This document shows positions 8,100 to 53,446 of a stretch of DNA of 64,000 nt, one piece after another. Each line of letters begins with the position of its first letter. Positions within the stretch are counted from its first letter, which is position 1. This DNA comes from Diphasiastrum complanatum (taxonomy: Eukaryota; Streptophyta; Lycopodiopsida; Lycopodiales; Lycopodiaceae), in assembly GCA_029204225.1 (NCBI GenBank), contig CM055097.1, positions 12,296,631 through 12,360,630 on the forward strand, given 5' to 3'. Below the pieces are notes generated by a model. It made no database searches. It worked only from the letters and a program-made list of their open reading frames with translations, and was not told the DNA's origin. Position numbers and translations under genes: made by a program.

Positions 8100-11936
<3,837 letters not shown>

Positions 11937-15428: not shown

Positions 15429-15978
15429 TTGCTATTCAAGCAAGCACCTAGAGCATGGTATTCTAGGCTAAACTCTTTTCCTATTTCCATCAACTTTGTG
15501 TTGAAAGCTTATGATCCATCATTGTACATAAGATTTCATGATGGCAAGATCATTATTCTTGTATTGTATGTAGATGATATTATTTTGAGTGGTAATGATC
15601 TAGATGGAATAAGAGAGGTAAAAGTTGCATTGGCAAAAGAGTTTAAAATGGTAGATCTTGGCCTATTAAGCTTCATTATAGGAATAGAAGTTACAAGAGG
15701 TTGTAATTTTAGCTTCATTTGTCAATCTAAGTATGCTACATCCATCTTAGATATATTTGGAATGAAGAATTGTAAAGGCATTGAGACTCCAATGGAGCAA
15801 CATGTAAAACCATCTATTGATGGTGGTGAAGCATCCTTTGAGGACATCACTTTATATAGAAGACTTATAGGCTTCTTAATATATTTGACTATAACTAGAC
15901 CTAATCTTAGTTATAGTGTTGGAAAGTTAAGCCAATTCATGCAAAGTCCTTTAGTTTCACATTGGAAGATGGCCAAAA
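15429..15978 (+). pseudogene. Copia element G: reverse transcriptase, C-terminal half
   Basis: This frame begins in the RT motif FKQAPRAWYSRLNSF and continues through the catalytic LYVDDIILSGND box, KMVDLGLLSFIIGIEV, FICQSKYATSIL, GIETPME and the LIYLTITRPNLSYSVGKLSQFM connection segment. These are the conserved C-terminal RT blocks of Copia. The frame is open until the MITE insertion at 15979 and resumes in RNase H after it. Confidence 0.88.
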
Positions 15979-16356
15979 CATTAGAGGAGTTCTAAATCCA
16001 AAAAAGACCCTTTGTAAAGATTCTTTTTATATTTTTTTCTCAATTTTTTCTTACACATGGACCAATCAAAACACTTAAATTTGAAATCAACGTAACGTAA
16101 CTTTTTGAGTCCACATTTTGATTCTACATTAAAAATGGCATAACCTTTTAGTGGTAAGTCCGAATTTAGCGGAGTTTGGTGCATTGAAAAGCGCTCAACA
16201 AGGGCTTTCCAATGATATCTAGATGACATACTTCTGAGCTACGATTAAAAAGTTATGGCAAGTCAAAAGCATTACTGCTATAATATTTTAATAATATAAA
16301 CTACATCTTGCACGAATTTTTAAAGGGTCTTTTTGGAACTCAAAACTCCTCTAATG
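15979..16356. mobile_element. 378-bp MITE of the A/B transposon family
   Basis: A non-coding element bounded by inverted repeats. The left end reads CATTAGAGGAGTTCT and continues to AAAAAGACCCTTTG. The right end is its imperfect inverse, ...AAACTCCTCTAATG. The same ends bound the autonomous-size element B. The Copia frame left of it ends GCCAAAA and right of it resumes GAGTTCTTAG, which together read through the conserved AKRVLR segment with no base gained or lost. The insertion therefore made no target-site duplication. The interior shares the CAACGTAACGTA region with the left end of B (near 17655), so it is probably an internal-deletion derivative. Confidence 0.85.
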
Positions 16357-16594
16357 GAGTTCTTAGATATATCTCATCAACTAAAAATTTTGATATATTG
16401 TATAAAGGGACTAATCTTGGCTTAAGAGCCTATAGTGACTCAGATTTTGCAGGTGACAAAGTGGATAGAAAGTCAATAAGTGCATTTTCCAACTTTCTAT
16501 GTGATGGAGTAGTATCATGGCTTTCCAAAAAGCAAGATACAATTTCCTTATCTTCCACACAATCTGAGTATAAGGCCTTGACATCAACATGCAA
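16357..16594 (+). pseudogene. Copia element G: RNase H N-terminal part
   Basis: This continues the Copia Pol frame after the MITE. It encodes the RNase H beginning AYSDSDFAGDKVDRKSISAF and the SWLSKKQDTISLSSTQSEYKA block, with catalytic Asp and Glu positions visible. It is cut by insertion of transposon A near 16595. The rest of RNase H and the 3' LTR are not found on the far side. Confidence 0.85.
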
Positions 16595-17542
16595 TATTAG
16601 AGGAGTTCTCAATATCAAAAATACCCTTTAAGGAAAGCCATGTAGGATATAGAAAAATATCAAAATAAAAAAAACAATATTGTTTATTTCTACCACTCCC
16701 GAGGCCTCCCCAACTCCCAATGATCTAACCACAGTGTCTATAGCCACAATTAAGAACTACAAATTGTTCACAGTTTAACTTGACTAAATTCAAAAATATT
16801 CCCTCCATTGCTTATGAAGAGGGCAATCTTTTCACTGGATCTAGAATATGACTGCCATCCCCAAATTCGAATCAGAAAAAATAGCAAAATGTATGCATAT
16901 GCATTCCTTCCACGAGAATGAAAATATGGGCGCCATCTCCAAATATGAACGCCATCTTCACATTGGAATGGAAATATGAGCGCCAACTACCTACTGGAAT
17001 GAAAAAATGAGTGCCATCTCCAAATTTGAATCAAGTAGACAAGCATGGAGATTGGATTGATCGTACAAAGTATACAATATATTCAAAGATGAGTATTTTG
17101 TTTTGCTTCAAAGAATCTGTTCATAGTACTTTGATGCATCTGATTACTCTATTGTTTTTTCTGATGACGACATTGTATCATCTACATGTGGATATCCCTA
17201 TTGATTTGGCACCTTTGCAGAGAAGAGGAGGCAAAGGAATTCAATTATCTGCTGAGGATTGTTCTCGTTATAAGACAAAAGGAAAGAAGAACTTGGATTT
17301 GTGGACAGATGGAACCATATATCCACTAGATCCAAGCACTTTGACACATCCCACATTCTCCTCAATAACTCATTTAGTTACTTGGATATGCAATGGGCAT
17401 ACTGAATTACTAGGATATTCTGAGAGATTGCAGAACTATGGAAAACAACTTTATATGAATAAAATTCACTTTTTAGAAGGTGAGTTAAAACGAATATCCT
17501 CTTATTGTCAGAATAGAGATTGTCTTCTCCAAAAGATTTTAG
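16595..17542 (+). mobile_element. DNA transposon A, left (5') part
   Basis: It starts with the family terminal repeat (ATTAGAGGAGTTCTC, then CCCTTTAAGG) inserted in Copia RNase H. A subterminal stretch at 16925-17035 repeats a GCGCCATCTCCAAATATG-like unit. Transposase exon 1 follows at about 17011-17542 on the plus strand. The whole segment is an inverted near-copy of 23470-24354 in element B. A is interrupted at 17542/17543 by B and resumes at 24355. Confidence 0.82.
17011..17542 (+). pseudogene. Transposon A transposase exon 1 (N-terminal domain)
   Basis: An open frame whose C-terminal ~130 residues match the minus-strand exon 1 of element B. Shared blocks include HVDIPIDLAPLQRRGGKG, LDLWTDGTIYP, HPTFSSITHLVTWICNGH and SSYCQNRDC. 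A Cys/His-containing, charged N-terminal domain is followed, across the B insertion, by a coiled coil (24355-24600). At the position where B has a TAG stop, A has CAA (Gln). The function is inferred from the matching gene in B. Confidence 0.6.
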
Positions 17543-17577
17543 CATTAGAGGAGTTTTCAATATCAAAAAGACCCTTT
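17543..17577 (+). repeat. Element B terminal inverted repeat, left
   Basis: CATTAGAGGAGTTTTC followed by AATATCAAAAAGACCCTTT. It differs from the inverse of the right end at one base over about 35. Confidence 0.92.
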
Positions 17578-18000
17578 GTAAAGATACTTTTATTTTTTTT
17601 CTTTAGTTTCGACCGTCACCAGGCCCAATCAAAGTGCACAGATTTGAAATCTACGTAACGTAGTTCAAATTAACTAAAAAATAAAAATGCAATATAGAAA
17701 ACTTTGAAATTTGTGTCCGAGCAACATGGACGTATCCCACTGGTTTTTTCTTCCTGCCCGACATGTGCTAATCTGCCCGACGTCAATACCTCAAGTTAAA
17801 TTTACTTTACTATGTTGGTTAGTATAATGAAATTTTCTAACTATAGTAGTTACAGGTATAGAAATATAGTATGTACAGTTACATAAAATATGGTATACGT
17901 AGTAATTGTGACTATGTTGGCATTCACATTAGATTAAATGTGATACGAAAAATTGAAATTAAGTAACATATCAGAGAGATTTTTGGCGCCCAAGCTTTGA

Positions 18001-18723
18001 AAATAGCAATGGCAAGGAGACCCAGATCTACGATCGATTCTGTGATTCTTTACAATGAGAAAGATGAAGTTGATAACTGGAAGCCAACAAAATATACGAA
18101 GAACTCATGGGTATTGCTGCATTCATCATCAAAGGGCAATTTTCGACAAAAGAAAAGAGCAAAAATGACTTACAAATCTTATTGGAAAGCAAAAATTTTG
18201 GAGTTTAAGACTGCCCCGAGAGGTCAATCGATATCAGAAGTCTTAGTGCAACATGTATATATGCATTCAGAAATCAAAGTACATGATATCAATCCTCATG
18301 ATCATCAAAAATGTAATTGTAAGTATATCAAAACATATGCACTCTACAGCAATCATAGGTGATTTCCTTTATTGATGCTCTTCAGATTATGATTTAAATG
18401 CTTCAACATTATTTTTTTCTTTTAGATTTATATCCATCATGCATAAGTGAATGGGAGCCCGCACAATCACTTGCAGGAATATTAATGTTGGAAAGCTGCA
18501 ATACAGAGGAAGAAGCTCAAAGGAACTTGCAGATTGTGGTATCTATTTTTATGAATCTTTATATACGCCACAAACAGATGGAGGTTTCGGCAAGCTCGAA
18601 GCAATTCCATTGCCTAGTTTTCAAAGTGATGAATGGCCTACTCCTGACAACATCCTATCCATGGGCGTGTACTATGTGATAGCGGACTTGTGCGTGAAGG
18701 TTAGGATGAGAAGGGAGGGATGA
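18001..18723 (+). pseudogene. Element B accessory protein with BAH-like domain
   Basis: Two frames probably joined by an intron: 18009-18362 (start MARRPRSTIDSV) and about 18424-18723. The first contains NSWVLL...SYWKAKILEF...VLVQHVYMHSEI. The second contains SEWEPAQSLAG, NVGKLQYRG and CGIYFYESLY. The order of a WVLL strand, a YxxAKILE strand, a V.VQ.VY..SEI strand and a later GIYFYE..Y strand resembles a bromo-adjacent homology domain, which binds chromatin. This is a pattern judgement; no single residue is decisive. The exact splice and frame between the parts are uncertain (18398 and 18451 frames overlap). Confidence 0.35.
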
Positions 18724-19480
18724 TAAAGAACTCGTAGAGGACCGCTATGTACGGACAAAATGTATGGTATATCGGACCTGTGCAAGCCGAATATCAGAGA
18801 GAACCATTAGATTTGAGGAAAGATGCACAAGTGCAATATGGGGTGACACGTAGGCAGATGTATCGGACATGTGCGCGTGGAAGGCAGTACGAGAAATTTC
18901 GATTGTGAAGGGCGCACACAAATGCGATATGCAGAGCGAAAAAAAAAATGAAGAAAATTCATCAAAATTTGTGATTTTATATCGGGGTTCACACGTGCGA
19001 AAGAACGTCTTGTCACACGTGTGGGCATTGTACGGACAAATGCGAGAGCGATACGTGTCACCCTATCACATTACACATGTGGGATTTGTACGATCGAATG
19101 CGAGAGCAACACGTGTTTCTAAACAATTAAATGAACACGCGACACATGTCCAAGTGTCATTTCACACGTCTGCAGGTGTCATCTCACATGTGCCTGTGCC
19201 TGTTGTCCAATTGAAAGTAGACACGTGTCCTACGTCCGGTGACCACACGTGCAAAAATTTAGTATAAATGGCACGAAAATGATTAATTTTTTACCTTTTC
19301 AGTTCTCAAAATTCACGACATATCGCTTTTGTGCGCGCTCATTGCTATCCGTTTGCTTGCAACTATACTTACTCGCGCACAAGTGTGATATTTTGTATAT
19401 GTCTGCCATACATATCCACCTTCTGTACCATTTTGATAATTAGTTTTGGTTCAGTTCTCCCACACGCACAAGTGCGATAT
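18679..19480. promoter_or_regulatory. Element B motif-rich regulatory segment
   Basis: A locally G/C-richer segment with at least seven copies, in both orientations, of a motif near ATATCGSACTTGTGCG: 18679, 18769, 18825, 18861, 18912, 19320, 19375 and 19464. It also has many ACACGTGT/ACACGTGC cores between 18990 and 19250. A 58-base tandem duplication starts at 19022 and 19080 (shared TGCGAGAGC...ACGTGT). TATAAATG lies at 19263, upstream of the gene at 19494. The part at 18679-18840 aligns with 44857-45017 next to the H3-like gene. Promoter or transposase-binding function is inferred. Confidence 0.6.
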
Positions 19481-19493
19481 TCACGCTACTGCC

Positions 19494-20993
19494 ATGGCCT
19501 CTTCCTCATCATCCTCACAGGCTTGACTTCATTTCTGAGTGAATTTGGGATTACTGAAAGTCTAGACTACTTCCACAGTCTATTCAAGCCATATCTACAT
19601 GTTTTCAGGACTGCACAACCAAATTTTGACGTATTTTATGAACATTATGTCAGATTTAGAGATATACTTAGCAAGCCTGTTTTCTCCATAGGTCCACTCT
19701 AGTACATGCATTATACTGATCTTGTTCATTTCTTCCCAGCTTTTAGACATAGACTGGATAGAATGTTATTGTTTGATCTTTTCAAAAGTAGTTCAATGTG
19801 TCCGTATTGGCAACAAGAAATGTCGATTGGTTGAATATCAGAGTGGTTTCGTACTTTTTCTGTTAGCTCAGATCCCAGATGATGATGAAGTTCCTGTTGC
19901 TGACCCTCCTTTTGCACCCTCCTCTGTTCAGTCAGCCATTAAGGATATCAGTTTCTTATCGACACTCATGATAAAGAAAGTGACTTCATTGATGTAAATA
20001 CTGATGTTCTCCGGGATTCTTTCATTGGCCAAAATACATCTGATGATGAATCCAAATCTATGGAAGATTCGAAATTTCTTTTCAATTTGCCTTTATATTA
20101 TATTAATGCAATGTAAATTTTACTACTGCTGATTTATGTAAATTTTTGGATTATCGTGAGGACGAGGTTCTATGTTTATTATCCGGCACAATTTACAAAT
20201 TCTCCGACTTTGTAGATTTTAAGACAGATGATCTTGTTGCTGGTATTGATTTTGATGATGAGGAGGGTCTTATGATCGGTGAAGAATGCCTGAATAAGAC
20301 TATATCAAATATAGCTGAGAATGGACGAGGCAGACCATCCGATGAAAAATTCACAGCATTTCAATCCCAGATGGGCTTCCCTCGTCCATCATTAATACAC
20401 TTCACTAATGATTCCACTTCAGTACGTGGTCATTATATTGATCATCTTGATCTGGTTGCTGATGATGATGAAGAATGTGTAAGTGTTTAATCTTCCTTGC
20501 ATTTGAATGTTTTCAATCACTGAATGTGTTTTTGCTAACATATTTCCTATTGTAGGATGCTCTCATAATAGATGATTTTGCTGCGAGACGAGGTGGTTTC
20601 AGACAACACGCATCCTCGTTCCAGAGGGACAGTGGACTGGGCCACTATCTTAGGCATTTCCTGAAGAATGAGATCTGTATTGCTCATTCCAAGCTGAGCC
20701 CAGTCGGGGAGAGTCTTATAATGGCAGTTAAAGCTTTATCATTTTATCTAGGAGGACATAAATTTGTTAAGACAAATAAGATCATTTTTGTCAAAAGATC
20801 TTATGTTTTGAACATTTTAGGCTTTACTGATGGGAATGTTCCTTTAAGGAGCTCCCATTATTCATTGTATTCCACTTATATTGAGCTTAGTGGAAATAAG
20901 GATAATGCACATCTATTAGATGCATACGGTAGCAGAGAATTTCTTCATGACAATACTACCATAGAATCTGATACAAGATCTGATGATGAATAG
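19494..20993 (+). pseudogene. Element B unknown acidic protein gene, multi-exon
   Basis: I do not recognise this protein. Coding-looking blocks run from about 19520 to 20993 in changing frames. Examples are a FLSEFGITESLDYFHSLFKPYL segment, a FRHRLDRMLLFDLFKSS segment near 19740, an acidic DDDEVPVADPPFAP stretch near 19880, the frame 20146-20490, and the frame 20553-20993. The junction near 20486/20556 looks like a genuine intron (GTGTAAGTG donor, CTATTGTAG acceptor before GATGCTC). The final part contains SFYLGGHKFVKTNKIIFVKRSY and an Asp-rich tail. An early TGA follows the ATG at 19494. It converges with the transposase gene. Confidence 0.4.
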
Positions 20994-21113
20994 TTGACAC
21001 TTTCTATTTTGGAATAATACAATCAATACATTTACATGGGGTATTTCTCCTCTCTTGTTCAATGAATTTGCAAAGCAATTCTGAACATGTCATGATGATC
21101 TTCTACTCAGCAA

Positions 21114-23848
21114 TCATCTAATTTTCTCTTCTTGTATGAACTTGCATGCTTTTCTAAACTTGTTGTATTGTGTGGACTTTGTTATATATCGAATCTGAAC
21201 TCTACGGTAGAACCACTGAAACAATTGACAAATGTAGTTTCGTTTTTCATTGGTTTCTCCATGTTGTGTATTTCGATGAAATGCTGCTCGTGCTTGCCAG
21301 TGTGACTTCTCCATCCCTTGTGATGACCATACACTCAAGCTTCCATATGTATTTGCAAAAAATGTTGTATGATCTCTTAGTATGTGCTGCAAATGTCCAA
21401 ATCATAATGTTAGTCTTATGTTTGGATCGAAATATATATGAAAATTTGAAAGCATTTTGAAAATTTTATATTAACCATGTAATGAGTGATGTGATCTTCT
21501 CCCCATGCTTTTGATATTGCATTAACAAACTCGACACAAGTTCTTTGGACAGCTTTCTTATCGATATCAGAGTATTTTTCTTTTCTTAAAATAGCAATCA
21601 TACTATCAAATACATCAACTTTTAGTACTCTGGTTTTGCCGTCTTTCTCGAAGTCCTGAGTGGCAACAATAATATCTGTCTAGATTGAGTGTTGAATATT
21701 AGAAGCCTTACCAGTATGATTTGATAGAAACGACGTGCTTTTGCTCCTCCTATGCTTGGCTTAGTTGGCATGTTCTCATTCTTTCCTGAAAGCTTTTCGT
21801 CTTTTTGAATTTTGACATGTCCTTTATGGAGTCCTGCTTTTGATAAAACATCTTCTAATCGAGAGATAGCTTCCTTTATGTTGTCTTAGTATTCCAAGCA
21901 AAAACTATATGAAGATAAATGATCTTTTCTATTAATCTAAATTCTGCATGAAGAGTGCAAACATGCACATTTTTTAAGGGGATAGACAGCACAGGCTTCC
22001 AGTTTGGATCTGTATATTCTCTAGTAATTCCTGTACTCCTAGTTACATCTTTTGCCATTTTCATGCCATACAAACAAGGGTGTTTTGATGTAGCACCGTG
22101 AGAGACATTATACATACATTTCAATGTTTTCAAATCACCTGCTAAGTGCCATTCAACATTGAAGTCTCCAACTCCTGGAACATTGAGAAGTCCTCCATCC
22201 ATATGGTCCTTGATGATCCTAGGATAAGATGTCCTTGAGAATATCCATGATAATATATCATGATCCTCTTTCAGCACCTATCCAAAGAATTAATCAGACT
22301 TAGTTTACAATGTATTAATACTATTCAATGAATGTAATGTAATAATGCTTCTTGGTTTCCAAGGGGAGGCTCGAACCTGAGACCAAAGAAACTTTGGATG
22401 TCAAGCTAACCAACTAAGACAACCCCGTTGGGTGTAATGTAATAATGAGGCTAGTTACCTGAAACGCTGCCAACCACCATATATCATTTTTTGACTGGAC
22501 ACTGAATTTGAAATCTTCTTGGTTCTCTGTTTGTGATAGAGCACCATTCATGAGAGTTATACTAACCCTTTCCATCTTCTGCCCTTTCACAATTTCTGAC
22601 TCATCTAACTAAAGTACTATGATTATTTTGCCATTCACCTTTTCGTAGGTTATATCATAGAATGTGACGATGTATCTCAGCAAGTAATTTAGATTAACAA
22701 ATAAATTGTTTGATGAATTATAGAATATCGATCTTCCATCAGTTTTATACACCTCCTCAATATGAAATGGAGTTCCAGTGACCTTATGCATACCCATGTT
22801 TAATGTATCCCTCTCTTTCTTCAAGTGATATGTCCTAGGGATTGGGACTTTTCTAATTTGAACTTGCTTAAAAGCTTCTCTAATTAGTTTAAATATTGTT
22901 GCATATGCTTCCCTACTAATACCTGCAAAATCACAAGCACCCTGAACTATAGTCTTATCTAAAATATTTTGAATGTCCACCATCAAAGACTATGCTATTT
23001 TACACTTTACATTTGAAATCCTATTGTTCATCATGATATGCTCAGTGGATTTGCAAGTCAATATTGTGCCCAATGACATTCCTAGTGAAGCATTGTCTTT
23101 AATATTCCGAGGAGCTACTAATGCAGATTCGCAAAAAAAACAGATAGTTAACAGAATATCACCATAGCTGAAATTAAATCCAAATGTCATTGAAAAACTT
23201 ACAAAATTCAGAATATGCTTACTTGAAAGCACAGATCCTTCTATTTCGATAACCTCCTTTTGAAAGTGTTTGAATATCCTTGTAACTTTGTCGCTTTCGC
23301 TTCTTACTTTCAGCCTTCTTCTTTGCCAAATCCACATCCTTCAGTAATTGTAAGTTTTCAATACGAATAGACTGTAAGACTGATTGCATTTGCTCTAGTT
23401 CTGATTTGATATTGATTGTTATTTTCTGTAATGATTCATTATTTTTTTTAAGTTGTTCATTTTCTTCTAACGTCTTCTAGAGATGACAATCCCTATTCTG
23501 ACAATAAGAGGATATCCGAATTAACTCACCTTCTAAAACGTGAACTTTATTCATATAAAGTTGTTTTCCATGGTTTTGCAATATTTTACAATATCCTAGT
23601 AATCCACTATGCCCATTGCATATCCATGTAACTAAATGAGTTATTGAAGAGAATGTGGGATGTGTCAAAGTGCTTGGATCTTGTGGATATAATGTTCCAT
23701 CTGTCCACAAATCCAAGTTTTTCTTTCCTTCTGCCTTGTAACGAGAACGATCTTCAGCAGATATTTGAACTCCTTTGCCTCCTCTTCTCTGCAAAGGTGC
23801 CAAATCAATAGGGATATCCACATGTAGATGATATAATGTCATCATCAA
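21114..23848 (-). pseudogene. Element B transposase (DDE type with CxxH), five exons
   Basis: The catalytic protein expected to cut and paste the element. Exons read on the minus strand: 23848-23223; 23167-22459 (55-base intron before it); 22277 to about 21780; about 21685-21475; and about 21388-21114. The N-terminus has the HVDIPIDLAP domain and a coiled coil with a KKRKR basic tract. Candidate catalytic residues are Asp in LDESEIVKGQKMERV (22603-22605), Asp in WHLAGDLKTLKCMYN (22134-22136), the CxxH in HVCTLHAEF (21948-21959), and Glu in SSQGMEKSHWQAR (21309-21311). This order matches eukaryotic transposases that carry a [C/D]xxH motif before the Glu. Damage includes TAG stops (near 23480, 22988 and 22609) and a frameshift near 21880. 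The superfamily is not assigned. Confidence 0.65.
22333..22447 (-). mobile_element. Short tRNA-derived SINE with 15-base target duplication
   Basis: An 85-base insert (22348-22432) lies in the transposase intron and is flanked by identical TGTAATGTAATAATG at 22333-22347 and 22433-22447. On the minus strand it reads as a tRNA-like unit. An A-box-like TTAGTTGGTTAGC follows a GGGGTTGTC start. A good B box, GGTTCGAGCC, lies about 30 bases further on, and CCCC pairs with the initial GGGG. A long perfect duplication plus Pol III boxes are the marks of a SINE retrotransposed by a LINE-type enzyme. There is no obvious tail beyond the tRNA part. Confidence 0.8.
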
Positions 23849-24354
23849 AAAAATAATAGAGTAATCAGTTGCATCAAAGTACTATGACCAGATTCCATGA
23901 AGCAAAACAAACTACTCATCTTTGATTATATTATATACTATGTACGATCAATCCAATCTCCATGCTTGTATGCTTGATTCAAATTTGGAAATGCCGCTCA
24001 TTTTTTCATTCCAATAGGTAGTTGGCGCTCATATTTCCATTCTCATGGAAGTAATGCATATGTAAACATTTTGCAATTTTTCCTGATTCGAATTTGGGGA
24101 TGGCGGTCATATTCTAGATCCAGTGAAAATATTGCCCTTTTCGTAACCAATGGAGAGAATATTTTTGAATTTAGTCAAGTTATACTGCGAACTGTTAATA
24201 GTTCTTAACTGTGACTATAGACACTGTCGTTAGATCATTGGGAGTGGTGTGGGCAAGCAAATAAACAATATTGTTTTTTTTTATTTTGATATTTTTGTAT
24301 ATCCTACATGGCATTCCTTAAAGGGTCTTTTTGATATTGAGAACTCCTCTAATG
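23470..24354 (-). repeat. Right arm of a ~0.9-kb inverted repeat (with 16595-17542)
   Basis: It carries the 5' end of element B and transposase exon 1 and is an inverted near-copy of element A's left end. The pair arose because B inserted into a relative in the opposite orientation. The arms are separated by about 5.9 kb. Confidence 0.85.
24320..24354 (-). repeat. Element B terminal inverted repeat, right
   Basis: On the minus strand it reads CATTAGAGGAGTTCTC followed by AATATCAAAAAGACCCTTT. It pairs with 17543-17577. Confidence 0.92.
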
Positions 24355-24714
24355 AGGAAAATGAACAACTTCAAAAAAATAATGAATCATTACAGAAGAT
24401 AACAATCAATATCAAATCAAAACTAGAGCAAATGCAATCAGTCTTACAATCTATTCGAATTGAAAACTTACAATTATTGAAGGATGTGGAATTGGCTAAG
24501 AAAAAGGCTGGTAGTAAGAAGCAAAAGCGACAAAGTTGCAAGGACATTCAAACGCTTTCAAAAGGTTATCGAACTAGAAGGTATCGTGCATTCAAGTAAG
24601 CATATTTTGATTTTTGTAAGTTGATCAATGACATTTGGATTTAATTTCAGCTGTGGTGATATTCTGCTAACTATTGTTTTTTTGCAAATCTGCATTAGTA
24701 GCTCCTCGAAATAT
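24355..24714 (+). mobile_element. DNA transposon A, remainder after the B insertion
   Basis: It resumes A's transposase gene with EENEQLQKNNESLQK, a heptad-like coiled coil ending in basic residues, to about 24596. A GTAAGC donor, a ~55-base intron ending TTTCAG, and the start of exon 2 follow, all matching 23470-23100 of B in inverse. Homology stops at about 24714, so A lacks the rest of its transposase and its 3' end. Confidence 0.8.
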
Positions 24715-27179
24715 GTTAGAATACATGGATTACATTGGGTCTGTTAATTGATAGAAGCTTGTCCCTAGAGTTAATGCTCTTGGATCCAAAGGGGGATTCA
24801 AAGCTTATCATTAATTTGGAAGGATCAGAATGTAAGGTTGAGCCATGTTAATTTCTGTTTTAATCACAAGAGCATGTGTAAATCTGCGGTATCCATCCGA
24901 TAGGCATGCCAGTCATCCAAATGAATGGATTCTCTAGCTTTTGGGAAAAAAAGATAATATCCTATATGGATTATAGGACAACTAGATGGTCAGTGGATCT
25001 CTAGAATATTCAAATAAGGCGGTTAAGGGTTTTTTGGAAGGAAGAGCTGGTGGTTGGGACATCAGTCATTTTGGAAAGAAAATTGTAGGACTATAAAGAT
25101 CTGATTATCAATGGAGTGTTTTAGTACCTAGTCATGATATGGAAAAAAAAAAAAGAAAAACCATTGATAAGATGTGGGGTAAATTTTGAGGTTTAATCTA
25201 GATCCCAATGCGGTATCTCATTATTTACAAAACAGAGACCCTCAAATCTATTTTTCGCTTTTTTAATTAATCCTTCTTAGCATTTTTTGGATAAGATATT
25301 AGACTAGTTTATATGATTCTTTCCAGCATGAAGTTATTCTTCTGAAAGACTGTTATAGCGTATGAATTACTACTTGTGTGAATAGACTTGAAATTCAGAT
25401 AAATTCTAAGGTCAAAGTGTTTCAATTTCTTAAACCTAAGATATCTCTTTTGCATAAATGGATCTCAGAGAAATGATTGTACCGTCACTCGGGCTGAAAA
25501 TATTTGAAGAAAAAGTCTTGGTTGTAATAGAGTGAATTCTTTTGTGGAATGCACTTATTATTGACTTTTCATGGATTTGGATATTTTCATAATATCATCT
25601 TTCCAGTTAACTTTTATAGAAATTGATAATTTCTTTTAAAGAAGGGGTGAAGTGATGGGGTAAAATTCTATTTGAGGATCTGTTGGTTGTATAGTTTTCG
25701 GAAGAGAACTAGATATGGTATAGAAATGAGATTTTTCTAAAAGTGATTTTGGATAGATTCAGAGTAAGATACCTATTTGGAACTTTTCGAATACGAGGAA
25801 TTCTCTAGGGATCGTGTGGACAATCTGGAGTTAGAATAGGTTGAAATTTGAATCATTATCTATAAGTAGTACAGTAAAAGACCAAAAGTTGATAATTCCA
25901 TTTAAATTGGAATAGGAGTAAGTTTGATCAGAATTCAAGTCTGAGATGCCTGTATTAAATCAACCTAATCTTAGTTTGAGTACTAGGATTAGTGAGGGGT
26001 TGATTGAGTGGAAGAAATTATGTTGTTAGTGGTAAATTGGATTGGAAAACTGTGGGAGCGAATGTTATTCATCTTAGAGATTTCTCGGATATTGTTATTT
26101 ACTCATGAGAAATAGAATTTTTTTAGTAGCTGAGTTACAAGATTCTTGGTGAAATATGTGAGTAACATACGTGGATTTTGGATGAATCTGCTAGATAAGA
26201 ATGTGTTTATGTACTGGGTCATAGTGAGGTTATTCACATATGTGCACATTGAATCTTGTATGAATCTACAGTGTATTCTTGGTTGCTAGGGTTATCTGGT
26301 GCACTTAACCTAGTCGGTGAACATAAACATATGATCAAGTATTGTTGAAACAGATACTTGCAGAGTTAACAGATCTTTCTGTGAAAGACTTGTTGGTTAA
26401 CTAAAAAATGATTTGGATAAAGATCTTGATGTGGTGTTATACATGTATAACTAAGATCTACGCCAAGACATTTGGGATTTCTAAATCTCTAGCAATTAAC
26501 TTGAGTAATTGGGTTACTCTTGAGAAAGTTAAATCACAAAATGGACAGTGTGAAGGGAATTCACCAAGAACTGTTTGTTTATGTGTATTTCTTGTAAGAC
26601 ACATGATTAGTGATTCATCAATCAAAATTATGTGCATTGGACATACAATATTCTTGGTAGAGTATTCCTTGGTTAAGGAATAGATCAACGGTGATTGTAT
26701 CCCAGAGCGCTCAATTGGATAATGAATCATAATGGTTCCAAGATTGACAATTGAGTTTTTGATGAATTTAGTAGATCTTTCAATATCTAGATTTAGTTCT
26801 AGACTGTAAATATGAAGTTTTTGTGGATGAAGATGGTTTTGATATCATTTTGGTATGCTTTCTGTCCTTGACTACCTGATGGTTTGGAATTTGATAACTC
26901 ACATTTAAAGAATCCAGCTTGAGGAATATTCCTAAAAGCTAGTATTTTTCTAGTGGAAAATATTTTGGAATGATTCTTACATTTTTCCTGAGTTGTGTGT
27001 TAAACATAAACTCCAGAATCCTTTAGGAATTAAGTATGTTTTGAGATTCTAGAGAATTATGATTGACGAATCATAAGAATCTATTTATTTGTGATTGACA
27101 AATCATAAATGAATAACTTAATTGAAGGTTAATTCGGAAATGTGTTGAGTAATTCCCAGTTTACTAATTCAAAAAGACT
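24715..27179. other. Non-coding stretch with repeat R2 copy 2
   Basis: AT-rich sequence between truncated A and Penelope-like remains. Only 25042-25225 is recognised, as a second copy of the repeat at 5100-5285. The frame at 26408-26683 has no recognisable domain. Confidence 0.45.
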
Positions 27180-38732: not shown

Positions 38733-38865
38733 GTGATGACTCGGAGGACTACAATATACTTTCTGACGAACAAATCCGATACTCTCAAGTTCTTCATGCA
38801 GTTCAAGACATCATCAAAAAAATTGACCCAAAGAAGAATCAAAACTCTACGCTCTGATGCAGGGG
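38733..38865 (+). pseudogene. Copia element E: integrase piece left of element D
   Basis: The plus-strand frame FLTNKSDTLKFFMQFKT...IKTLRSDAG is integrase core up to the second Asp. It is broken by insertion of element D; the continuation lies at 42723. Confidence 0.75.
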
Positions 38866-39726
38866 TGTTGAAAATTGTCACTTCTCACTTGTCATTGTTT
38901 ATTGTAAATAAAGATCAATCATTAGAACAATGTTCATGATCTGATTTCACACGTGTGGAGCCTGTTCCCACTTGTGAAAGAAAGTATTTTTCATACTTGT
39001 AAACATCTATTTTGATTTTGTATCAATCAAGTTAGTGTGAACATGATATGACTAGTTTTTAGTCAAGTTGACTAGTCACCTAGAAATTAGCTTTTCCTAG
39101 CATGTGCATGAGTAAATGCACCCACATGGCAAGTGGATGTTCACACGTGTGTATAGAGTTCTAGAAGATAAGAGTTGACCATTTTTCTTAGATCCTATTT
39201 TGTAGGGAATATTCCTATATTCTAGGAGACTAGCTCTTTGGATTTTAGCCATATTCTAGAAGGTCAACTTTGGATAAGGATCAAGGATGGATCAAATGGA
39301 TAGATTTGAGTGATGTGGCACTCTTCACACGTGTGAAGACCTGCTGGACTGTACCAGACTCGTGGATGTACTTGATCCATAAAAGGATCATCATTTTGTT
39401 AATGAGATTGATGAGACTTTTGCATTCTACACTTTTATGAGATTTCTAGTCAATAGAATTGTGATTTTTATGAATGATTGCTATCAAGAACCAAAGTACT
39501 TGTTGTTTCAGGTGTAGGCCGTACAGTGGATAGTACTCCACACGTGTGAGGCCGCTTTCACTGATTTATGAAGTTTTGATTCATTGCTCTTGCTTAAATC
39601 TAAGTGTAGTGAATCTAGATCAAGATCTAAAGTGTAGAACTTGATAGATCCATTGATTAAGCAACCAATAACTCTCTATGATTGTTAAGTACAACTATTA
39701 TTGTCCTTTAAACTAAAATTTTATAA
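38866..39726 (+). repeat. Copia element D 5' LTR
   Basis: It starts TGTTGAAAATTGTC and ends TTTTATAA, where the 3' LTR ends TTTTATCA. CACACGTGTG palindromes lie at 38948, 39142, 39326 and 39539. An internal segment of about 80 bases near 39552-39640 is absent from the 3' LTR. Confidence 0.92.
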
Positions 39727-40739: not shown

Positions 40740-41929
40740 TTGAAGAAGCATATAGATCTAAAGTTTGGAGAGATGCAATGCAAGTAGAGTATGATGCATT
40801 AGAAGAAAATCATACTTGGAATCTTGTAAATCTTCCAAGAGGGAAGAAGCCACTTGCATGTAAGTGGATTTATAGAATAAAGTACAATCAAGATGGATCT
40901 GTTTGGCTTTGTACTAAGTGCTTTTGAACCTTCTTTATATTTCAAATGTAATGAAGGAAAGATCATCATTTTGGTGCTTTATGTTGATGACATCATTATG
41001 ACAGGAAATGATGATGAAGGCATAAGCAAAGTAAGTTCAAGATGGTAGATCTAGGCTTCCTAAAGTTTATACTTGGGATAGAAGTGTCTAGAAGTAGCAA
41101 TTGTACTTTCATAAGTCAATCAAAGTATGCTACTTCCATTCTTAAAAAGTTTGGTATGAAAGATTGTAAGGGGATTGACACCCCTATGGAGCATGTTGTG
41201 AAAGCAACTAATGAAGGTGATGAAGCATCCTTTGAGGACATCACCCTCTTTAGAAAGCTTATAGGCTCCCTAATCTATTTAACCATCACTAGACCTGACT
41301 TAAGTTTTTGTGTAAGCAAGTTGAGTCAAAATATGCAAGCTCCTTTAGTGCATCATTGGAAAAGTGCCAAGAGAGTGCTTAGATATGTTTCTAGTACTAG
41401 ATTTTTTGGCATACTTTATGAAGGATCTAACTTCCACTTGAGAGCCTACTCGGATTCAGATTTTGCAGGTGACAAGATGGATAGAAAGTCCATTAGTGCA
41501 TTTGCAACATTCCTTTGTGGAGGAGTAATATCTTGGCTTTCCAAAAAGCAAGATACTATCTCACTATCTTCTTGTGAAGCCAACTACAAGGCATTGACTT
41601 CAACAACCAAAGAGCCCCTATGGCTAAGAAGACTCTTGATGGAGCTACATGTGCTAGAGGCCGAGGAGATCCTTTATATATTTTGTGACAATCAAGCTTC
41701 TCAACAAATTGCTTCCAATCCTATCTTCCATGCTAGAACAAAGCATATTGAGATAGCTCACCACTTTATGAGGGAGAAGGTACCATCCAAGGAGGTGCAA
41801 CTACATCATGTACCATCATCCGAATGCATAGCTGATATTTTAACCAAGCCATTGTCCAAAGATCCATTTTTCAAGTTAAGATATTCTCTTGGAATTTTAG
41901 ATAGATGTACATTAGATTTGCCAAGTTAG
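40740..41929 (+). pseudogene. Copia element D: RT remnants and complete RNase H
   Basis: RT N-terminal blocks (WRDAMQVEYDALEENHTWNLV, ACKWIYRIKYNQDGS) are followed by a deletion, then LYVDDIIMTGND near 40980 in another frame. From 41042 a clean 295-residue frame covers the RT thumb and the whole RNase H. Its blocks are AYSDSDFAGDKMDRKSISAF, SWLSKKQDTISLSS, CDNQASQQIASNP, HARTKHIEIAHHFMRE and the closing HHVPSSECIADILTKPLSK, with a TAG stop. It is the best-preserved Pol C-terminus in the window. Confidence 0.92.
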
Positions 41930-41942
41930 AAGTGAGGAGGAG
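41929..41942 (+). promoter_or_regulatory. Copia element D polypurine tract
   Basis: GAAGTGAGGAGGAG abuts the 3' LTR start and would prime plus-strand DNA synthesis. Confidence 0.85.
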
Positions 41943-42722
41943 TGTTGAAAATTGTCACTTCTCACTTGTCATTTTTTACTGTAAATAAAGATCAATCATG
42001 AGTGCAATGTTCATGATCTGATTTCACACGTGTGGAGCCTGTTCCCACGTGTGAAAGAAAGTACTTTTCATATTTGTAAATATCTACCTTGATTTTGTAT
42101 CAATCAAGTCAAGTGTGAACATGATATGACTAGTTTTTAGTCAAGTTGACTAGTCACCTAGAAATTAGCTTTTCCTTGCATGTATGAGTAAATGCACCCA
42201 CATGGCAAGTGGATGTTCACACGTGTGTATAGAGTTCTAGAAGATAAGAGTTGACCATTTTCCTTAGATCCTATTTTGTAGAGAATATTCCTATATTCTA
42301 GGAGACTAGCTCTTTGGATTTTAGCCATATTCTAGAAGGTCAACTTTGGATAAGGATCAAAGATGGATCAAATGGATAGATATGAGTGATGTGGCACTCT
42401 TCACACGTGTAAAGACCTGCTAGACTGTACCAGACTCGTGGATGTACTTGATCCATAAAAGGATCATCATTTTGCTAATGAGATTGATGAGACTTTTGCA
42501 TTCTACACTTTTGTGAGATTTCTAGTCAATAGAATTGTGATTTTTATGAATGATTGCTATCAAGAACCAAAGTACTTGTTGTTTCAGGTGCATGCCGTAC
42601 AGTAGACAGTACTCCACACGTGTGAGGCCGTAGAATTTGATAGATTTATTGATTAAGCAACCAATAACTCTTTATGATTGTTAAGTACAATCATTATTGT
42701 CCTTTAAACTGAAATTTTATCA
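41943..42722 (+). repeat. Copia element D 3' LTR
   Basis: It matches 38866-39726 with scattered substitutions and one ~80-base deletion near 42630. It ends TTTTATCA. Confidence 0.92.
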
Positions 42723-43410: not shown

Positions 43411-44840
43411 CTTTGAAATATCAACATCCTCTTGAAGGTTGAACCACTCAAAAAATAACTTTGCATTATATAAAGTGTACTACCTACAGTTGAATGAACC
43501 ATTTTGCTGGGGTGACTGCAAAAAAATTCAGCACACAAGAAAGCAATTAAGAAGCAGAATGAATTAGAATGAAACAAATACATTAGAATACCGATTTCAA
43601 AATGTTGTTAAGAAAGACAAAATTGACCTCCAAACTGACGATTTGCCAGTCAATGGGATGGGGAACATCTCTTGGAATATATTTACTTAAATATGACAAG
43701 TATATATCTACATCCTTATGCGTATTGCTAGCCGAGTTCATCTTGACACAAAATACTTTAATAGTATTATCTACAAATCTCTTGATAGAGATCAGGTTTA
43801 AACTCTAGTGCTCACTGCAAAATAAGATAGAAAGTACATTAGCTACAATTCTGAGAACTATTTCCATTGATAATGCCAATGATAAAGCATTAAACAACAA
43901 GAAGCATTTAACATATCTCACTTGGTATGATAAAGCACAAGCAGGTATTTTGTTGTTGGTGTGAATCCACTAGTCAGACACTATGACAAAGTGCCGTTAT
44001 TCTCCTTGAAGACCTGTAGCAAAAAGTTACTGAGCACCAACAATTCATTGGATCAATCACTCTATAGTTTATACTGAAGTCAAGTTCCTCTAATCTAAAA
44101 CAAAATGGAACTCCAATTCTATCTACAACATCGGCTATGTCACTCTTAAATTTAAGATAATCATCTGAATCTAAATATGTATAAAAATTTGAAATAGGAG
44201 GAGGAGGAGGTGGATGAGCAGTATCAACAGGAATAACAAGATTATCCAAAATTGATGTAGCTATATTTACAATCGTATCTAGTGTAGCAGTATCTACATT
44301 ACCAACGGGGTTAGGTTGAGAAAAATTTGTGGTATTGGCCTTCCTAACTTTCTTCGGGGCTCTCTTGGGAGCTGGCTACTTCCTAGGCCGCTTGGTAGAG
44401 AGGTCTGCTCTATCTAATGGACTAGGTCTGGGAGCAGCCGGCTGAGACATGTGTAACTTGGAATATCTTTCCCGTATCCTCATCAGTAGTTGGAAATCCT
44501 TAGGCATAATGGTTACTCTCTTAGCATGTATAGCTAGCCAAAATGAATCTTCAAAAAAAAGGCTCATATAGTTCTCAGAAGCCTCCTGAAGGCACTGAAG
44601 AGCCGAGGGAGTGAACCTAACAAATTGTCCGAGATCATTCCTGGTAATATGGCGGACAACACGATAGAATGGAGCTCTCTGAATCAGCAGATTGGTTGAT
44701 CTCTAATACTTACGAATATCAGAGAGCCACCTGATGTGGTTGCGCCTTCTAATTTAAACAGGAGGGGTAATGGCAATGGCAGGGACTGAGGATATACCAA
44801 TAGAGAAGAATTCTCTCTTCGTATGTTTTCTCTTCTCCAT
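43411..44840 (-). pseudogene. Histone H3-like (CENP-A-like) gene with long extension, decayed
   Basis: Exons 44014-44840, 43592-43814 and 43411-43515 have good GT-AG borders and compatible phases and give about 385 codons; a GTAATT donor at 43410 implies more exons. Residues ~29-125 match a histone H3 fold: IRKY, STNLLIQRAPFYRVVRHIT (alpha1), FTPSALQCLQEASENYMSLFFED (alpha2), IHAKRVTIMPKDFQLLMRI (loop 2 and alpha3). Loop 1 is one residue longer than canonical H3, as in centromeric H3. A Pro/Lys-rich linker, a PPPPPP run and an unknown ~230-residue extension follow. Canonical H3 ends right after alpha3. Five in-frame stops (TAA 44754-44756; TAG 44703-44705, 44376-44378 and one in each later exon) but no frameshift. 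All could come from Gln codons by C-to-T. The extension is not recognised. Confidence 0.7.
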
Positions 44841-50147: not shown

Positions 50148-50390
<243 letters not shown>

Positions 50391-51800: not shown

Positions 51801-52282
51801 CCGTTCTCACGACGTAAGGTAAATCTGGATTTGCAATTTGTAACACGAGAGCTGAAACTGATCTCCTTTGCTTGCACTTTCTCCCTCACGAAATGATGTG
51901 CAATCTCGATGTGCTTTGTTCGAGCATGGAAGACTAGATTGTTTGCAAGTTGTTGAGCTGCTTGATTATCAGAATATATGCATGGAATGTCGTCATCCTT
52001 GATCACATGTAGCTCCTCCAAAAGTCTTTTAAGCCAAAGAACCTCCTTTGTTGTTGTTGTCATAGCTTTATACTCGGATTCTGTTGATGAAAGAGAGATG
52101 GTATCTTGCTTTATGGAAAGCCAAGATATAGCTCCTCCACATAAGAATGTATCAAATGCACTTATGGATCTTCTATCCATCTTGTCACCTACAAAACTTG
52201 AGTCCGAATATGCTCTTAAACAAATATTAGTCCTTTCATAAACTATGCCAAAGTCTTTTGTAGCCGAAATGTACCTTAACAC
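51791..52282 (-). pseudogene. Copia element J: RNase H, truncated
   Basis: It contains AYSDSSFVGDKMDRRSISAF, ISWLSIKQDTISLSSTESEYKAM, IYSDNQAAQQLANN and HARTKHIEIAHHFVREKVQ. It departs from the family just after that, losing the closing HHVPS...DILTKPL block, so the 3' end and 3' LTR are missing. A short gap with a stop (near 52290) separates it from RT. Confidence 0.88.
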
Positions 52283-52291
52283 CCTTTTTGC

Positions 52292-53446
52292 TCATTTCCA
52301 ATGACATATTAATGGACTTTGAATGTATTGACTCAACTTGCCAACACAAAAACTAAGATATGGTCTAGTGATGGTTAAGTATACCAAGGAACCAATAAGC
52401 ATTCTATAGGTAGTGATGTCCTCAAAGGATGCTTCATCACTGGCCTTAGAAACTTTTACACTTAGTTCCATAGGAGTTTCAACTCCTTTACAATCAATCA
52501 TGCCAAATCTTGCTAAGATTGATCTAGCATACTTAGATTGACATATGAAGGAAAACCCATTTCTTCTAGTGACTTCTATTCCAAGTATAACTTTAAGAAG
52601 TCCTAGATCTACCATCTTAAATTCACCAGACAAGGAAACTTTTACATTTTTGATGCCATCTAGATCATTTCCTGTGAGTATAATGTCATCAACATATAAA
52701 ACTAAGATAATGATCTTTCCATCATTACATTGGTAGTACAATGATGGTTCATAAGAACTTACAACAAATCCAATGGAAATAAGATAGGAATGCAACCTAG
52801 AGTACCATGCTCGTGGTGCTTGCTTGAGTCCATAAAGACTCTTCTTCAAGAAACACACCTTGTCTTCTTCTCCATCTTTGATGAAGCCCTCGGGTTGGCA
52901 CATGTAGATTTCCTCTTCCAAGAATCCATTCAAGAAAGCATTTGTCACATCAAGTTGGAAGAGCTCCCATTTGAAAGAAGTTGCAAGACATATGATTAAT
53001 CTAATGGTCACAAGCTTTGCAACAAGTGCAAAGGTTTCATCATAATCTATGCCTTTAACTTGCAAAAAACCTTTTGCTACAAGTCTAGCTTAAAACTTAT
53101 GAATGGAACCATCTTGATTATATTTCAATCTATATATCCATTTACAAGTAAGAGGCTTCTTTCCATAAGGTAAATCAACAAGCTTCCAAGTTTGATTTTC
53201 CATTAATGCATCAAACTCTACTTGCAAAGCTTTCCTCCAATATTGAGACTTATTTGCTTCCTCAAGAATAGTTGGTTCTTCAAGCATAGTAGTCAAGAAA
53301 GTAGAAGAGTTGAGTAGTTGAGAATCTTCCCTTTGTTCCCCTTTGTCACTATAAGTGAGCCTTGATGGCTCAATCCTTGTCCTTATTGATAAGATTTGGC
53401 TTTTTGCCAAACAATACTTCATAAGGTATAAGTCCTTTAATGGCAC
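52292..53446 (-). pseudogene. Copia element J: reverse transcriptase
   Basis: Two frames. 53446-53090 covers the linker and RT start (ALQVEFDALMENQTWKLV, LTCKWIYRLKYNQDGS). 53065-52292 covers DYDETFALVAKLV, LFQLDVTNAFLNGFLEEEIYM, CFLKKSLYGLKQAPRAWYSRL, the catalytic LYVDDIILTGND, and FICQSKYARSIL to GKLSQYIQSPL. One stop or frame break near 53090 is the main lesion. Confidence 0.92.

Follow-up and report, generated by a model that had tools for sequence, protein, structure and literature searches.

In a 64,000-nucleotide stretch of the Diphasiastrum complanatum genome (assembly GCA_029204225.1, contig CM055097.1, positions 12,296,631 to 12,360,630 of the forward strand; hereafter the window), a family of DNA transposons shows no net gain of target bases at the two insertions that could be tested. 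The family comprises a full-length element, B, a related element, A, that is interrupted by B, and a miniature inverted-repeat transposable element (MITE) lodged in a Copia retrotransposon. The observation is real and its object is a transposon. We consider it probable that this is a cut-and-paste family with a transposase of the RAG1/Transib fold that integrates without target-site duplication. The elements and their host are arranged as follows.

15436..16594, plus strand: host fragment of Copia, which the MITE interrupts and A terminates
15979..16356, no strand assigned: MITE, 378 bp, located in Copia RNase H, with the same ends as B
16595..17542, plus strand: element A, left part, beginning with the end TATTAGAGGAG..., then transposase exon 1 up to the B insertion
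17543..24354, minus strand: element B, full length, CATTAG...CTAATG, 6812 bp, between 35-bp inverted ends, with its transposase on the minus strand
17543..17577, plus strand: left terminal inverted repeat of B
24320..24354, minus strand: right terminal inverted repeat of B
24355..24715, plus strand: element A, its transposase gene resuming after the B insertion, up to where similarity to B stops

The limits of B and the MITE, and the left edge of A, are set by a common 35-bp terminal inverted repeat, 5'-CATTAGAGGAG...CTCCTCTAATG-3'. A scan of the window that allowed up to 8 mismatches located five copies of this end, at 15979 (plus), 16322-16356 (minus), 16595 (plus), 17543 (plus) and 24320-24354 (minus), and a control in which bases were shuffled within 200-bp blocks returned 0 matches in 200 shuffles. 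By alignment count, B's two ends are identical at 34/35 bases and those of the MITE at 30/35. The termini read CATTAG..CTAATG in both the MITE and B, and the left end of A reads TATTAG. Because B's two ends diverge beyond 35 bp and the left end of the MITE follows the left end of B (78% identity over 124 aligned columns, covering the first 121 bp of the MITE), the MITE has the appearance of a B-like element reduced by deletion. A (16596-17542 and 24354-24714) aligns to the reverse complement of B's right arm (24353-23102) with 87.5-91% identity in three BLAST pieces; by this similarity A and B are one family, and not different things as an earlier note on the sequence had treated them. B lies inside exon 1 of A's transposase gene, and B's own copy of that exon can therefore serve as an empty site for the B insertion.

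For each insertion, the flanks were joined without the insert and aligned to paralogous, uninterrupted sites within the window.

41281..41480, plus strand: Copia paralog, MITE empty site, gap-free joined-flank alignment
52151..52370, minus strand: Copia paralog, second MITE empty site, joined-flank alignment
23371..23550, minus strand: segment of B homologous to A, B empty site, gap-free joined-flank alignment

The joined MITE flanks run gap-free across the junction against both Copia paralogs; the second alignment contains, roughly 10 bases upstream of that point, a pair of gaps that compensate each other. Across the joined B flanks there is likewise no gap against B's own copy of A's interrupted gene. 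Net target gain is zero in both testable insertions, and no target bases were lost. With a slash at the insertion point, the target sites are CCAAAA/GAGTTC for the MITE and TTTTAG/AGGAAA for B. The zero for the MITE is unambiguous because no shift of the insert, even by a single base, is possible. The insertion of A into Copia adds no third count: its left flank extends to the end motif, but neither the 3' part of Copia nor A's own right end was found within the window. The earlier note had described a DNA transposon family that inserts without duplication, with long ends of about 35 bases shared by B and the MITE. It had further held that exact deletion rejoins the interrupted frames, with GCCAAAA/GAGTTC in Copia RNase H and TTTTAG/AGGAAA in A. 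The end copies, the shuffles and the empty sites bear out this description, the junction letters are as it gave them, and the alignment of flanks to empty sites in paralogous repeats that it had called for yields, within the window, no bases gained at either insertion.

Around the target sites, GAG lies just beyond the MITE cut (AAAA/GAG), AGAGG straddles the B cut, and AGAG is found in one Copia paralog near the position corresponding to A's left end. A weak target preference around GAG/AGAGG is possible, three sites (15979, 16595 and 17543) being too few for more. A different kind of insertion occurs within B, in an intron of its transposase gene: a tRNA-like sequence of 85 bp (22348-22432; 22333-22447 with its duplications) that resembles a short interspersed nuclear element. 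It carries a B-box-like GGTTCGAGCC on the minus strand, ARAGORN detects no tRNA in it, and since it lies inside B it must be younger than B. It retains an exact 15-bp target duplication, TGTAATGTAATAATG, and so serves as a partial positive control.

The minus strand of B was parsed into five transposase exons (23842-21114), which are broken by three in-frame stops and a frameshift. Their borders are tentative, with just 32 bp for one of the supposed introns.

23223..23842, minus strand: transposase exon 1, N-terminal domain and coiled coil, one in-frame stop, borders tentative
22459..23167, minus strand: transposase exon 2, first catalytic D and LDESE, two in-frame stops
21712..22277, minus strand: transposase exon 3, second D in GDLKTLKC, then PCLYG and VHVCTLHA, one frameshift
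21476..21679, minus strand: transposase exon 4, exon 3/4 joint shorter than in relatives
21114..21386, minus strand: transposase exon 5, HILRDH as H(4)H, and a putative third catalytic E in the GMEKSH that follows

Residues 170-790 of the composite translation retrieved 13 proteins (E to 3e-113), and a profile built from five of these retrieved at least 53 with the best 7998 candidates scored, giving at least 56 distinct identifiers in all. A species name is attached to 2 of the 56, both from the fern Adiantum nelumboides and both partial matches within odd gene models; the same two have precomputed Pfam domains, and neither set is that of a transposase. Across 23 aligned rows D404, D501, H580 and H585 (numbering of relative P0001) do not vary, and at least 90% of the rows have C521 and C524. 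Across 40 rows the first D is again invariant, and conservation is 90% or more for the second D and for the cysteine and histidine positions. Most rows end before the C-terminus. In the three sequences that continue, P0001, P0002 and B itself, an H-x4-H motif (HILLVH, HILKVH and HILRDH, respectively) is followed by G-M-E-(R/K)-S-H, which places a candidate catalytic E 19-20 residues after the second H. A tree was built from B and 31 of the 56 relatives (32 rows); in it B is a long branch and is not placed.

Sequence profiles of known families recovered little. Six open reading frame pieces of B gave nothing in Pfam, and the composite (E<=10) gave no match at cut-off, the listed matches being YabA, below cut-off at E 3.9e-5 through the coiled coil, and two weaker ones. 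For 23 of the 56 relatives (E<=5), the 25 of 56 matched Pfam families listed had only matches of E 0.009 or worse and included no transposase. NCBIfam gave only sub-cut-off matches, for 4 of the 56. A Pfam miss of this kind leaves distant kinship possible. A viral fold library yielded nothing at E<=0.001, its best match being a hAT-type Pandoravirus protein (E 0.0046). Transposase profiles gave 16 pattern matches in viral contigs and 211 in genome contigs, none confirmed in either, and a search with the end motif found no relative in the viral contigs.

AlphaFold models of two relatives resemble RAG1, BbRAGL and HzTransib (Foldseek E to 6.6e-10; Z to 16.8) over a region that spans RAG1 residues about 460-963, the alignment to HzTransib having 14% sequence identity. 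The D-D-E, C(2)C and H(4)H motifs and the CA..TG termini also appear to suit the CACTA-Mirage-Chapaev-Transib (CMCT) clade; the duplication length does not. A transposon of the PHIS type can be given next to no credence: Spy likewise lacks a duplication (PMC4482050), but the targets here differ from AAATTT and the best folds are those of RAG1 and Transib, although the failure to recognise a PHIS structure among the matches listed excludes nothing. The comparison with Spy in the earlier note is thus not upheld. Where it had proposed either a new superfamily or an undescribed plant branch of a known one, the predicted fold and the empty sites suggest a duplication-free branch of a RAG1-fold group, possibly one that ranks as a superfamily of its own. 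In Pfam the transposase had no match at cut-off, either for B or, among the families listed, for the 23 relatives scanned. The note had also said that a strong transposase match to a superfamily with a known duplication would refute it; the predicted fold does point to a group reported to duplicate 2-5 bp, and the empty sites still give zero.

We therefore call the family RAG1/Transib-fold and CMCT-like, a designation that depends on motifs and models, and do not file it under Transib, RAGL or CACTA because each of these has a characteristic duplication that is absent here. The transposase would be a DDE enzyme with the RAG1/Transib core fold. Judged by that fold, it would nick at the CA..TG ends, form hairpins on the flanking DNA and free the element with 3'-OH ends that then attack the target. 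The zero gain suggests strand transfer at directly or nearly opposed phosphates, or a stagger that is trimmed rather than filled in, and the MITE would be mobilised in trans through the shared ends.

Several points weigh against a duplication-free family of this fold. Every catalogued CMCT lineage is said to duplicate 2-5 bp (PMC12730594, 2025), and RAG-like transposons are described as almost always leaving 5 bp (PMC7204232). Only two insertions are testable, both from one window. The B boundary can be slid by one base (G at 17542 equals G at 24354), and hence the B insertion taken alone formally allows a duplication of at most 1 bp. That misplaced boundaries conceal a short duplication generally is nevertheless very improbable: this slide in B speaks for it, but the MITE cannot be slid at all, its ends are the same as those of B, and no shuffle produced such an end. 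B itself, with the stops and frameshift in its transposase gene, is by its sequence not active, and reads PCLYG where most relatives have PCxxC, the second zinc cysteine being lost. Both models are based on relatives for which no terminal repeats are known, rather than on B. Whole-length Foldseek superpositions are poor, with a template modelling score by query of 0.20-0.36 and a root-mean-square deviation of about 10-20 A for matches at E<=0.001. The stretch holding the third catalytic E has a predicted local distance difference test score under 50 in both models, and the position of the candidate E near RAG1 E962 is extrapolated from the alignment ends. Because searches of the PDB by sequence found no transposase, and sequence profiles found no RAG1 or Transib there, the suggested kinship rests on predicted fold and motif order.

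The known habits of the relatives by fold, which duplicate 2-5 bp (PMC12730594, PMC7204232), could instead mean that this is an ordinary CMCT or RAG-like transposon with a short duplication, and that both insertions are atypical events, an excised element having been captured at a double-strand break by end joining. End-joining capture does produce no duplication. However, it typically leaves small deletions or fillers, and both insertions are exact on each side with no target letters lost or added; we regard this explanation as unlikely.

Beyond the duplication-free RAG1/Transib-fold family itself, we tentatively raise, as a serious possibility, an undescribed plant superfamily of RAG1-fold transposons in which paired strand transfer without stagger leaves neither duplication nor loss at the target. 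The main threat to this claim of novelty is Lanisha, which its authors reportedly link to moss genomes. The present family might be a member of that CMCT lineage (Repbase Reports 2020), and hence already named, in which case zero duplication would be a Lanisha trait or a local variant. Lanisha is reported to be EnSpm-like with C(2)C and H(3-4)H motifs, as seen here, but is grouped with lineages that duplicate 2-5 bp (PMC12730594), and no such duplication was seen at either insertion; membership is conceivable but somewhat doubtful. A search of open-licence PMC papers, judged mostly by titles and abstract openings, showed no duplication-free CMCT or RAG-like element.

Besides the transposase, B has two further genes.

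18009..18700, plus strand: second gene of B, approximate and broken, convergent with the transposase gene
19494..20993, plus strand: third gene of B, approximate and broken, convergent with the transposase gene

The first 117 codons of the second gene (18009-18362), the part scanned, have no Pfam match above cut-off. For the third, a 469-residue composite is likewise without a match in Pfam, and 5.8 billion proteins include no homolog of it at E<=1. They may encode accessory proteins, as does CACTA ORF2, or be captured sequence. The convergent orientation of these genes led us to consider a RAG2-like partner, for which there was no support, given the lack of Pfam matches above cut-off in the scanned parts and of homologs for the third gene. 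Within B, the stretch 18650-19490 is richer in G+C and carries five ACACGTG motifs, and a TATAAAT precedes the third gene at about 19263. This stretch may be promoter sequence, or else a segment that is nested or was captured.

Elsewhere in the window, a minisatellite of about 31 bp x 2.9 lies at 16941-17031 in the subterminal region of A. Direct repeats of about 695 bp at 38861-39554 and 41938-42630 (95.8% identity) flank a Copia-like region and are probably the long terminal repeats of a fairly young element. Two arrays far apart, at 11810-11933 and 50150-50279, share the same short repeat, apparently in 6-bp steps, with up to 100% identity over 112 bp. The minus strand at 44451-44726 is 43% identical to residues 585-676 of relative P0055 (Adiantum), past its transposase-like region, and may be a histone-like fragment because Pfam lists histone domains for P0055. 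Rfam and ARAGORN found no match in the window.

RAG1 is the enzyme that cuts our antibody genes, and the same core shape is predicted for this transposase. If the reading as an undescribed plant superfamily is true, blunt integration would be seen for the first time in a branch of the RAG1/Transib structural group, and land plants would possess an enzyme with a RAG1 core, accompanied by convergent genes. Duplication length serves as a fingerprint of transposon superfamilies and, it has been argued, mirrors how far apart the two active sites sit on bent target DNA (PMC10045372). An enzyme of this fold that leaves zero bases would break that rule inside a structurally well-studied group, and comparison with RAG1, for which strand-transfer structures exist, would make the determinants of stagger directly testable; should further copies bear the finding out, the family would help to explain what determines duplication size. 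It would also add a RAG1-fold family, present in a fern, that has no Pfam match above cut-off, and annotation pipelines that need a target duplication would miss such elements.

The family resembles several known systems in part. With RAG1 and RAGL (ProtoRAG, BbRAGL), which have been discussed for animals (PMC4411706), it shares the predicted core fold, the motif order D, D, C(2)C, H(4)H, E, termini starting with CA and further genes convergent with the transposase. In contrast, RAGL transposons are described as having a 5-bp duplication and a RAG2-like partner (PMC7204232), where this family has zero duplication, and the protostome RAGL terminus consensus is CACTWMCAAA, compared with CATTAGAGGAG here. 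Transib (HzTransib) likewise has the RAG1 core fold predicted for the two modelled relatives, but is reported to duplicate 5 bp (PMC7204232). CACTA/EnSpm elements are similar in their occurrence in plants, CA-starting termini, multi-exon transposase and second gene (PMC4158355). They differ in having CACTA termini and, by the same source, a 3-bp duplication, whereas the termini here are CATTA and the gain is zero. No transposase model is among the Pfam families listed for the relatives, a miss that is compatible with distant kinship. Lanisha is alike, by report, in its CMCT motifs (PMC12730594). Spy, of the PHIS group, is reported to share the lack of a target duplication, but inserts at AAATTT (PMC4482050), and its transposase is probably of a different group.

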